A stretch of DNA of 64,000 bases, from NCBI RefSeq assembly GCF_900142825.1, contig NZ_FRCH01000001.1:620001-684000 (forward strand). Reading direction: 5' to 3'. This document shows, piece after piece, positions 51,174 through 62,540 of this stretch. This DNA is from Rhodanobacter sp. OK091. Its GTDB lineage: Bacteria > Pseudomonadota > Gammaproteobacteria > Xanthomonadales > Rhodanobacteraceae. Made by a program: the position numbers and the translations under genes. The notes under the pieces are model-generated. The model was not told the origin of the DNA. It searched no databases and saw only the letters and a program-made list of their open reading frames with translations. Positions within the stretch are counted from its first letter, which is position 1, and each line of letters starts with the position of its first letter.

Positions 51174-51752
51174 ATGAACGATTCCGCCAGCCGCATTCCC
51201 GCCGACGCCAGCGCACCGGTGGAAACCCTGTACGAAGGCCGCTGGCTCAGCCTGCGCAAGCGCGGCCGCTGGGAGTATGCCGAGCGCAACAATCCCGGCG
51301 GCGCGGTCATCATCCTGGCGGTGACGCCTGACGACCATGTGCTGTTCGTCGAGCAATACCGCGTATCGATCCTGCAGAACACGATCGAGATGCCGGCCGG
51401 GCTGGTCGGCGACGAAATCGGCATGACCGACGAGAGCGCACTGCTCGCCGCACAGCGCGAGCTGGAGGAAGAAACCGGCTATCGCTGCGAGCGGGTGGAA
51501 TTCGTGCATTGCGGCCCGTCGTCATCCGGCATGAGTACCGAGATGATCACCTTCGTGCGGGCATGGGGGCTCACCAAGGTCGGTCCGGGCGGCGGCGACG
51601 AAACCGAAAACATCGTGGTGCACGAAGTACCGCGCCGGGAAGCCGGTGCCTGGCTGTTCGCCCGTTCCGCCGAGGGTTATTCGATCGATCCCAAGCTGTT
51701 TGCGGGGCTGTGGTTCATCGAACATTTCCGTTCGGCCACCTCGGGGCCCTAA
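51174..51752 (+). CDS. NUDIX hydrolase (ADP-ribose pyrophosphatase-like)
   Basis: The 192-residue protein has a Nudix box with ESALLAAQRELEEETGY as the REx2EEx2G core, preceded by an EMPAGLVGDE segment as in NudF-type ADP-sugar hydrolases. The spacing before the box is about two residues longer than the textbook pattern. The stop codon forms the first bases of the FliA promoter of the next gene. Confidence 0.9.
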   Translation: MNDSASRIPADASAPVETLYEGRWLSLRKRGRWEYAERNNPGGAVIILAVTPDDHVLFVEQYRVSILQNTIEMPAGLVGDEIGMTDESALLAAQRELEEETGYRCERVEFVHCGPSSSGMSTEMITFVRAWGLTKVGPGGGDETENIVVHEVPRREAGAWLFARSAEGYSIDPKLFAGLWFIEHFRSATSGP

Positions 51753-51776
51753 AGATTTCTCCGGTGCGGCCGATCT
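51750..51776 (+). promoter_or_regulatory. FliA (sigma-28) promoter of the first exported paralogue
   Basis: TAAAGATT, 11 bases, GCCGATCT, compared with the consensus TAAAGTTT-N11-GCCGATAA: seven of eight and six of eight matches with exact spacing. It ends 36 bp before the ATG at 51813. The -35 overlaps the NUDIX stop codon. Confidence 0.8.
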
Positions 51777-51812
51777 CAGGATCAATGGTCCCTTGATCCT
51801 GGAACGCCCACC

Positions 51813-52178
51813 ATGAAATCCCGTCTGCTTGTTTCCGCCCTGTGCCTGTTCGCTCCGATGGCAGCAAACGCAGCCTGCGCCGCCACGGATTTCGTCATCA
51901 AGAATTTCGCTGTCAGCGCCGGCTCTGGCGGCTTGAGCAGCAAGATGATCATGAAAGGTCAACTGGTCAACAACTGCGCCGAGGCTGCCGCCGCCCAGAT
52001 CGAAGTCCAGGCCAAGGACAGCAGCGGCAACGTGCTGCAGTCCAAGAAAGGCTGGCCGGCCGGCACCACCAACATCGCGCCCGGTCAATCGGTGCAGTTC
52101 GACGTCGGCCGTCAATTCCACTACGACCCCAGCATGCAGACCTATGCCGCCGGCATCGTGAGCGTGCGCAGCTGGTAA
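51813..52178 (+). CDS. small exported protein, FxLYD-like, paralogue 1
   Basis: The 121-residue protein has a clear signal peptide (LLVSALCLFAPMAANA), leaving about 100 residues with an Ig-like beta pattern. The motifs LSSKMIMKGQLVNNCAEAAAAQIEVQAKD, GWPAGTTNIAPGQSVQF and HYDPSMQTYAAGIVSVR recall FxLYD domains, in which secreted strands carry small side-chain patterns. Two Cys remain (C22, C55) and could form a disulfide. It is about 79 percent identical to the next gene and has its own sigma-28-type promoter. Function is unknown. Confidence 0.85.
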   Translation: MKSRLLVSALCLFAPMAANAACAATDFVIKNFAVSAGSGGLSSKMIMKGQLVNNCAEAAAAQIEVQAKDSSGNVLQSKKGWPAGTTNIAPGQSVQFDVGRQFHYDPSMQTYAAGIVSVRSW

Positions 52179-52268
52179 GCCGGCGACGGCAACCATCCGC
52201 GGCCAGTGATAGCCGATCATGGGATGTCGCGCCGACGCGCGCTCTCCCGGCCGGCTGCGCGACTGCTC

Positions 52269-52295
52269 TAAAGTTTTCCGGGTCGCTGCCGCTTA
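52269..52295 (+). promoter_or_regulatory. FliA (sigma-28) promoter of the second exported paralogue
   Basis: TAAAGTTT (a perfect -35), 11 bases, GCCGCTTA, 37 bp before the ATG at 52332. The distance from promoter to start is almost the same as for the first paralogue, although the intergenic sequences otherwise differ. Confidence 0.75.
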
Positions 52296-52331
52296 ACAGG
52301 TATCCCCCACCCGATGATGAGATAACCCGAG

Positions 52332-52697
52332 ATGAAGAACATCCTGCTCGCCTCTGCCCTGCTCCTTGCCGCCCCCATGGCGGCACACGCAGCTTGCTCG
52401 GCCACCGATTTCACGATCCAGGATTTCAAGGTCGCCGCCGGTTCCAGCGGCCTGAGCTCGAAGATGACCATGAAAGGCCAGCTGGTGAACCATTGCGCCG
52501 AAGCGGCTGCCGCACAGGTCGAGATCCAGGCCAAGGACGCCAGCGGCAACGTGATCGCGAGCAAGAAGGGCTGGCCGGCAGGCACCACCAATATCGGGCC
52601 GGGGCAGTCGGTGGAATTCGACCTCGGCCGCCAGTTCCATTACGACCCCAACATGCAGACCTACGCCGCCGGCATCGCCAGCGTTCGCGCCTGGTAA
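52332..52697 (+). CDS. small exported protein, FxLYD-like, paralogue 2
   Basis: The 121-residue protein aligns without gaps to the gene at 51813, with about 26 differences. The signal peptide (LLASALLLAAPMAAHA), both cysteines and the GWPAGTTNI and GRQFHYDP blocks are kept. Most changes are in the signal peptide and the first mature strand. Its promoter and the nearby chemotaxis operon suggest expression with flagellar class III genes. The function is unknown. Confidence 0.85.
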   Translation: MKNILLASALLLAAPMAAHAACSATDFTIQDFKVAAGSSGLSSKMTMKGQLVNHCAEAAAAQVEIQAKDASGNVIASKKGWPAGTTNIGPGQSVEFDLGRQFHYDPNMQTYAAGIASVRAW

Positions 52698-52760
52698 GCA
52701 GACACGACGATCCACGCAGGCCTGACCAGGTTTCCTGATCGTCGCCAGCAAGCAGCAAAC

Positions 52761-52793
52761 GAATACGGGTCGCCATCATGGCGGCCCGTATTC
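52761..52793. terminator. hairpin terminator after the exported pair
   Basis: GAATACGGGTCGCC, five-base loop, then a 14-base arm pairing at all positions with one G-U pair, followed by ATTTGCTT. It lies 63 bp after the second paralogue. With the terminator at 52886-52910 it separates two convergent units. The rest of this 286-bp gap shows no gene. Confidence 0.7.
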
Positions 52794-52885
52794 ATTTGCT
52801 TGCACGCGTTGAATCGCTGATTCATCGAAGCCCCGCAGGGGACTGGCCCCTTCCTGCCGGTGGCCTAGTCCACTTCGCAGATACG

Positions 52886-52910
52886 AAAAGGCTCCGGAGT
52901 CCGGAGCCTT
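52886..52910 (-). terminator. intrinsic terminator of the chemotaxis operon
   Basis: On the minus strand a perfect 10-bp stem AAGGCTCCGG with a three-base loop is followed by TTTTCG. It lies about 70 bp after the last gene of the che operon. Confidence 0.75.
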
Positions 52911-52983
52911 GAGGCACAACGCGCGCGCCAAAGGGATGTATCGCAGTCCGGGAAGGCAAACGGCCCACCGGTCGCTGCAAGAA

Positions 52984-53283
52984 TCAGTGCAGCACGAACA
53001 ACTTGTCGAAACCGGCCACACGCAAAGTGCTGCGCAACTCGGTGCCCGCGTTGACGATACGGATCTCGGCGCGGTCGGCGCCGGCGTGTTCGCGCAGCAG
53101 CAGCAGCATGCCCAGCGCCGAGCTGTCCATGCTGGTGACTTCGCCCAGGTCGATGACGTAGCTGCGCGCGGCGCCACCAGTGCCGAGGCAGGCCTCGTGA
53201 AAATCGCGATGGATGCTGAAATCGAAACGCTCGCCCAACTGCAGGGTCAGGCAATCGTGTTCGCTGTCGTGGTGGACGATCAT
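52984..53283 (-). CDS. STAS-domain protein at the end of the che operon
   Basis: The 99-residue single STAS domain has the motif VTSMDSSALGMLLLL with candidate phosphoserine S54 or S55, like anti-sigma factor antagonists. It lies 10 bp after the MCP-like gene and is last in the chemotaxis operon. No HATPase or PP2C partner is in this operon; the nearest is at 23810. Regulation by that module, or a structural role with the MCP-like protein, is speculation. Confidence 0.88.
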   Translation of the reverse strand: MIVHHDSEHDCLTLQLGERFDFSIHRDFHEACLGTGGAARSYVIDLGEVTSMDSSALGMLLLLREHAGADRAEIRIVNAGTELRSTLRVAGFDKLFVLH

Positions 53284-53293
53284 GCTGTACTCC

Positions 53294-54481
53294 TCAAAAC
53301 AATTCGATTTCGCCGGCATCCATCGAGCTCTGCAATGCCGGACCGCGGGAACGCAGACGCGCCTTTTCGCGCTGAATGGCCAGCCGGCTGCGCACCCGCT
53401 GCGCATGCTCGGCCAGGTTGTCGGCGTTGACCGGTGCGCAAGCCAGCTCCTCGATGTCACGCGTGCATTCGCCGACCACTTCCTGCAGCTCGACCAGCCG
53501 GGTGCGCGTCTGCCGCAGCAGCTGGCTGAGGATGTCCTCGAACTGCAGCGATCTGATCGTGGTGGAAACATCGCTGCCCAGGCCCCGATTGATCTCCACC
53601 ACCTGGTCGGCGACCGCACTGGTGCGCGCGTCGCTCTCGGTGACGTGCGCCATCATGGCGTCGATGCCGCCCTTGGCCGACAGCGCCACGTTCAGGTCCT
53701 GCGAGGCCATCGTGCCGACCAGCCCACGCAATTGTTCCATCGCGGTACGTGCACGCTCGACGTGGCTGCCGATCTGCTCGTTGAACTGGTTGGAATTGCT
53801 GGCCAGGTTGCGGATCTCGCCGGCCACCACGGCGAAGCCGCGGCCGGACTCGCCCGCGCGCGCCGCCTCGATCGCGGCATTGAGCGCCAGCAAGTTGGTT
53901 TCCTCGGCGATCGTGTTGACGTTCTTCAGCAGTCCGAACACGGCATCCATCTCCTTCGCCATGCCGTCGATGCGGTAGACGATGCGCAGGCTTTCGCGCG
54001 ACATCTGCACGATCATGCCGACGAAGTGCTGCAGCAAGTCACCGGTGCGGGCTGCGAAATCCTGCACCGAGACGCCACCATTCTGGGCGTCGATGATCTG
54101 CTTCAGCAGTGACTGCTGCAGCCCGGTCTTGTGCGACAGACCGTCGAACCCGCCGCCCAGTTCGGACACCGCGTCACGCAGCAGGTCGAGTCCCTGATGC
54201 AGCTCGCGGGTGGCGTGGCCGAGCTCGTCCACCAGCGCACCACGTACGTCCTCCAGCGCCTCGCGCACCGGGGTGCTGTTGCCGGCTTCAGCCATCGGCG
54301 CGGCCAGCAGCGGCCTGCGCCGGCTCTCGACAATCCATACCGCGGTGAGTACGACGATCAGCAGCGGCGCCAGCCATGCGGGATGCCACAGCAGCGCCAG
54401 CAACAGCGCGAGCGTGCTGGCGATCCAGCCGTAGAGCGGGCGGTCAGCGAAGATCCGGGCAATGTGAGATAGGACAACCAT
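53294..54481 (-). CDS. MCP-like signalling protein without a sensor domain
   Basis: The 395-residue protein has two adjacent membrane segments (about 19-32 and 36-51) with no room for a periplasmic sensor and no HAMP. The MCP hairpin tip [23 protein letters not shown] is well preserved. The C-terminus (about 340-395) is charged and ends [11 protein letters not shown], with no CheR-binding pentapeptide. It lies 16 bp after cheB. It may read an internal signal or assist array formation. Confidence 0.88.
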
Positions 54482-62384: not shown

Positions 62385-62411
62385 CTATCGGCCAATCGGC
62401 GGATCGCTTTA
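62385..62411 (-). promoter_or_regulatory. FliA (sigma-28) promoter of the che operon
   Basis: The minus strand reads TAAAGCGA, 11 bases, GCCGATAG: five of eight in the -35 and seven of eight in the -10, with exact spacing. It ends 40 bp before the STAS start at 62345, so it should drive STAS-cheY-cheA and beyond. Confidence 0.7.
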
Positions 62412-62513: not shown

Positions 62514-62540
62514 TAAAGTTCGCGTGGGCCCGGCCGATGA
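62514..62540 (+). promoter_or_regulatory. FliA (sigma-28) promoter of the fliK-like gene
   Basis: TAAAGTTC, 11 bases, GCCGATGA: seven of eight matches in each half with exact spacing. It lies 48 bp before the TTG start of the fliK-like gene and is divergent from the che operon promoter about 100 bp away. Confidence 0.8.

Follow-up and report, generated by a model that had tools for sequence, protein, structure and literature searches.

Tandem exported paralogues beside the che cluster of Rhodanobacter sp. OK091 are very probably late flagellar genes under sigma-28 control

Two small adjacent genes at the edge of a chemotaxis cluster encode predicted exported proteins and are each preceded by a sequence resembling a promoter of the flagellar sigma factor sigma-28 (FliA). 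Do they belong to the late flagellar regulon and, if so, what could their products contribute to a flagellated cell? The locus lies in a window of 64,000 nucleotides (the whole stretch of DNA that was analysed) of the genome of Rhodanobacter sp. OK091. The tandem genes described in the original prediction are indeed present: they encode two proteins (P0001 and P0002) of 121 residues each, with N-termini resembling signal peptides and 79% identity to each other, and they differ by a dN of 0.17 and a dS of 0.74, values that point to purifying selection on the pair. A gene for a 5'-3' exonuclease and the NUDIX gene are located on their 5' side, while on their 3' side the che cluster is convergent and has a STAS protein at its near end (Table 1). 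The terminator-like hairpin of the table comes from a scan of positions 51500-53200, which returned two such hairpins against a mean of 1.2 (sd 1.1) in shuffled sequences, and found no sigma-70-type promoter in that interval.

Table 1. Coordinates, in the window, of the gene pair, its putative signals and its flanking genes
Feature	Position	Strand	Basis
NUDIX gene, the flank usually found upstream in Dyella and Rhodanobacter	51174..51752	+	neighbourhood comparison
Sigma-28 (FliA) site of gene 1, TAAAGATT-N11-GCCGATCT	51750..51776	+	21.0 bits, E. coli FliA matrix
Gene 1, 121-residue exported protein P0001 (predicted export)	51813..52178	+	ORF and comparison
Likely 20-residue signal peptide of gene 1, cut after A-N-A	51813..51872	+	by eye
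Sigma-28 site of gene 2, TAAAGTTT-N11-GCCGCTTA	52269..52295	+	18.7 bits, E. coli FliA matrix
Gene 2, 121-residue exported paralogue P0002 (predicted export)	52332..52697	+	ORF, comparison, structure model
Likely 20-residue signal peptide of gene 2, cut after A-H-A	52332..52391	+	by eye
Terminator-like hairpin, 15 pairs, 3' of gene 2	52761..52793	+	hairpin scan
STAS-domain gene, near end of the che cluster	52984..53310	-	neighbourhood comparison

Each gene had been credited with its own promoter of the form TAAAG-N11-GCCG, at 36 and 37 bp from the ATG. Both sites exist and their distances are as similar as claimed, but the distance is 36 bp in both cases and the gap between TAAAG and GCCG is 14 bases, N11 being the gap between the two octamers. 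The TAA at 51750-51752 both terminates the NUDIX gene and opens the -35 box of gene 1. The same box spacing is found in E. coli FliA sites, such as those of flgMN (TAAAGATT-N11-GCCGATAA) and flxA (TAAAGATT-N11-GCCGATAG), and the class III genes flgMN, tar, flxA and ynjH share both the octamers and the spacing seen here (PMC4183435). In the Rhodanobacter genome itself, which encodes FliA (277.5 bits, C2:689700-690359), a flgM-like ORF recognized by eye 3' of flgA has its own sigma-28 site, of the same kind as those of the window genes, and fliC has a weaker one (TCAAGTTT-N11-GTCGAAAC); FlgM was confirmed by Pfam in two relatives (L175 and L176).

By itself, the pattern TAAAGNNTN11GCCG shows no genome-wide enrichment, with 4 matches against 10 and 11 for the reversed control pattern, so that the case for the promoters rests on position and conservation. 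Two of these matches belong to the window genes, one precedes flgM and one lies at C6:110530. As regards position, 12 FliA-type sites of at least 12.3 bits were found in the 123.7 kb made up of the window and the adjoining flagellar region, against 3, 2 and 1 in three shuffles. Seven of them reach at least 12.9 bits and correspond to both window genes, flgM, a FliK-domain gene, the head of a STAS-CheY-CheA operon, a CheW gene and a cheV-like gene (flgM and cheV being identified by eye), and the remaining five (12.3-12.7 bits) look like chance occurrences. Between the STAS-CheY-CheA operon and the FliK-domain gene, sigma-28-like sites stand divergently at 62385-62411 (-) and 62514-62540 (+). 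Strong ones, of 21.1 bits each, were noticed in G000 at C4:51728-51752 (L062), on another contig and before an MCP-like gene, and at C2:1698205 (L061), before an unclear ORF; besides the site of the MCP-like gene, two in all precede genes of uncertain or non-flagellar kind.

Conservation was assessed on homologues from 45 loci of named genomes and from further genome samples. After duplicate removal 141 distinct sequences match the family profile, and 138 were counted, namely those above 100 bits, with locus L045 left out. The 160 bp upstream were scored with a matrix built from 15 published E. coli FliA sites, using a threshold of 13 bits. A site of at least 13 bits precedes 131 of the 138 homologues, against 14 of the 467 other genes in L001-L044. 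The predicted place of the genes in the sigma-28 (class III) regulon is thereby upheld at the level of sequence, as is the conservation of the promoter at related che-linked loci that had been proposed as a check, and the two window genes are very probably members of the FliA regulon. In the 120 sites with a spacing of 11, the information content is 1.5-2.0 bits at each position of TAAAG and GCCGAT and no more than about 0.7 in the spacer; picking sites by score biases the box values upward, a bias from which the control genes are free, and so is the C preceding TAAAG, which lies outside the scoring and is kept in 111 of these 120 sites. The seven homologues without a good site are both copies of G137 (L159), both of G679 (L118) and one each of G001, G027 and G157: those of G001 and G027 (L170, L171) are first copies with weak TCAAG-type sites, and that of G157 (L168) is its copy.

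The six best control hits have similar starts and resemble one gene adjoining the homologue in Dyella, whose L017 copy is a GGDEF protein; they may be real sigma-28 genes. This diguanylate cyclase gene (L017:6594-7790; Pfam, for L017 only), 3' of the homologue, has a strong sigma-28-like site of the type TCAAGTTT-N-GCCGATA, and similar genes occur in L020, L022, L026, L031 and L032 (and L015).

The distribution of the gene leads in the same direction. Across the family sample of 197 genomes, homologues were found in 103 and FliA above the cut-off in 107: both are present in 103, the homologue alone in none, FliA alone in 4 and neither in 90 (Fisher p 5.6e-52, kinship ignored). The anticipated dependence on the flagellum is thus borne out in the family sample, since the homologue occurs in 103 of 107 genomes with FliA and in 0 of 90 without it; homologues in non-motile relatives lacking the motif, named beforehand as evidence to the contrary, appear in none of these 90. 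A distant homologue in L045, a fragmentary MAG, has neither the motif nor flagellar neighbours. Genera of mixed composition (g1, with 9 genomes having both genes and 8 having neither, and likewise g13, g22, g24 and g25) show what would be joint gain or loss, repeatedly. It seems likely that the gene is useful only to flagellated cells.

The four genomes with FliA only are G167 and G190 (81% and 73% complete, respectively), G017 and G091. In G017 the flagellar system is diverged, FliA and FliC being 39% and 43% identical to those of the Rhodanobacter genome in the stretches fetched. G091 is a real exception, with a native-like flagellar system (FliA 61%, FliG 57%) and no homologue, which means that the protein is not indispensable. 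A second, diverged type of FliA, sharing 35-39% identity with the native protein, is encoded in G017 (C1 around 2151662; L179) and in G019 (C1:1769876; L189); the latter has the native FliA as well, while G017, where the homologue is absent, has the diverged one only. Outside the family the gene is rare: 39 of 250 genomes match in a sample of the order, 37 of them belonging to the family, one being G248 and one matching weakly, and 3 of 369 match in a sample of the class, namely the Rhodanobacter genome itself, G679, which has two copies, and one with a weakly matching fragment. Both G248 and G679 encode FliA. From these samples, the gene would be almost specific to a single family, which the named relatives suggest to be Rhodanobacteraceae.

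Comparing the neighbourhoods of relatives confirmed the position beside the che cluster: in Dyella and Rhodanobacter the homologue usually lies between the NUDIX gene and the che STAS gene, parts of this arrangement being missing in many loci. It is on the fliA contig in 72 genomes, and within 36 kb of fliA in 50 of these. This linkage of most copies to che and flagellar genes may inflate the co-occurrence, which is the chief weak point of the interpretation, and could even suggest that the latter is mostly physical, the gene being lost in deletions of a linked che/flagellar block. Such an account is very improbable; linkage does not explain a promoter that is kept box by box, also in copies that have moved away. 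In the 14 genomes of genus g11 for which the distance was taken, 79-157 kb separate the homologue from fliA; in L152, for example, its neighbours look, by eye, like rnhB and moeA. The sigma-28 site is nonetheless present in every one of the 18 g11 genomes that have a homologue. This relocation supports selection on the promoter; as no genome without FliA was seen among g11, it is no test of losses. An extra copy in G112 (L167), about 0.8 Mb from fliA, also has the site.

Outside the family, in G679, two copies follow the series flgA-flgM-flgN-ycgR-EAL/HDOD on the same strand, and in G248 a single convergent copy stands at the end of the same cluster, a place next to flgA, flgM and flgN that resembles the neighbourhood of flgOPT in Vibrio. 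In a tree of the 138 proteins, based on 120 columns and with many forks poorly resolved, the paired copies found in the window clade, in three Dyella species, in G679 and in G137 fall into separate groups; such duplicates would have arisen more than once. Head-to-head copies were observed in L101, L108, L143, L144 and L159; in all but L159 each copy has a sigma-28-like site of its own. The contig of L027 is labelled Candidatus Eremiobacteraeota, and both its homologue and its che neighbourhood fall among Dyella-like sequences; it is probably misassigned.

Given the promoter, the co-occurrence with FliA and, outside the family, the association with the flgAMN cluster, this is very probably a conserved late flagellar gene. 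Membership of the regulon could also mean that the protein is a passenger, which helps motile cells and is no part of the flagellum. There are precedents in E. coli, where modABC, flxA, ynjH and ves have FliA promoters but no obvious flagellar role (PMC4183435). The near-perfect tracking of FliA and the place in the flgAMN cluster are nonetheless more than a passenger would show, and this possibility is given a small chance.

The proteins themselves indicate where the action might take place. Export, predicted for the window pair, extends to the homologues: an A-x-A/G motif is found at residues 15-26 in 131 of 138, and a lipobox-like motif in 5. In a diverse set of 20 members the invariant columns are C22, L51, N53, C55, G72, W81, P82, A83, N87, P90, G91 and F96. 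C22 and C55 are invariant in both alignments made, and 126 of the 138 homologues have exactly two cysteines; the members of G679, G248 and L045 have two extra ones, in a C-x4-C hairpin. An AlphaFold2 model of P0002 (pLDDT 85.7, pTM 0.73) has six strands, and the predicted fold resembles common Ig-like beta-sandwiches.

No Pfam family fits P0001 or P0002. The suggested likeness to FxLYD domains (NCBIfam NF038353) stood as a marginal similarity: at E <= 1 the model matches 17 of 20 members, the lowest E being 4.8e-5, but the window proteins score 17.9 and 16.9 bits against a cut-off of 23, and of ten further members one scores 23.2 and the others lie below 23 or are unlisted, so that one of the twelve scored singly reaches the cut-off, by 0.2 bits. 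Both families share the layout G-x-L-x-N-C ... D-x-x-G ... P-G-x-x-x-x-F, to which the window family, unlike the FxLYD domain, adds the invariant cysteines and a W-P-A-x-T/S-x-N loop. For DUF3426 (PF11906), which at E <= 1 has matches in 5 of 20 members (lowest E 0.00035), the gathering cut-off of 27.7 bits was not reached, P0001 scoring 14.3 bits and P0002 not being listed.

The signal peptide and the cysteines say that the product would reside in the envelope or the exterior. It could accordingly be a secreted or surface-bound protein on the filament or on surfaces (for adhesion, coating or surface sensing), with flagellar control providing timing to the motile phase. The near-general lack of a lipobox beside the signal peptide, the Ig-like sandwich, found in many surface proteins, and the repeated duplication agree with this idea. 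Nevertheless, the copies of G679 sit amid flagellar assembly and brake genes, and an unsystematic look noticed no surface-anchoring or secretion motif; we regard it as rather unlikely.

The motors of polar flagella vary between lineages in their envelope accessories, by which stators are recruited and the flagellum is anchored, and the H-ring and T-ring proteins FlgO, FlgP, FlgT, MotX and MotY of Vibrio are lineage-specific accessories of this kind (PMC7990780); the present family is lineage-specific as well. Unlike them, the window proteins would consist of one sandwich of about 100 residues; MotY_N and FlgT_N had no match in the Rhodanobacter genome, in searches whose controls were also silent. 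With respect to the E. coli class III genes, the difference lies in a product with predicted Sec export, without a named family and found almost only in one bacterial family.

Of the roles first suggested, a motor role is possible, and none of the results speaks for or against a sheath, mucin or surface-sensing component. A periplasmic accessory is favoured because the gene tracks FliA as a part of the flagellum would, and because of the company kept by the G679 copies. When FlgM leaves the cell, FliA would transcribe both genes; the product would pass through Sec, be cut after A-x-A, have C22 and C55 joined by a disulfide and fold as a single Ig/FxLYD-like beta-sandwich. Its place of action would be the periplasm, where it would assist the completed flagellum, most likely at the rings of the basal body or the stators. 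We place a motor or ring accessory of the periplasm at slightly below an even chance, and consider the whole explanation, that is, paralogues of a nearly family-specific class III gene whose product is a periplasmic flagellar accessory, evenly balanced between right and wrong. More tentatively, the protein may be an unrecognized component of the periplasmic motor, a small Ig-like subunit with a disulfide bond that joins in the final step of assembly, has an origin separate from that of the known H-ring and T-ring proteins, was duplicated repeatedly and perhaps tunes the motor.

With its presence in 103 of 107 genomes with FliA, against 0 of 90 without it, and its own conserved late promoter, the gene is a strong candidate for a motor accessory or another late flagellar function. 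The combination of promoter and co-occurrence provides a simple recipe for finding further flagellar genes, and these small exported proteins are likely to be an overlooked accessory of the swimming machinery.
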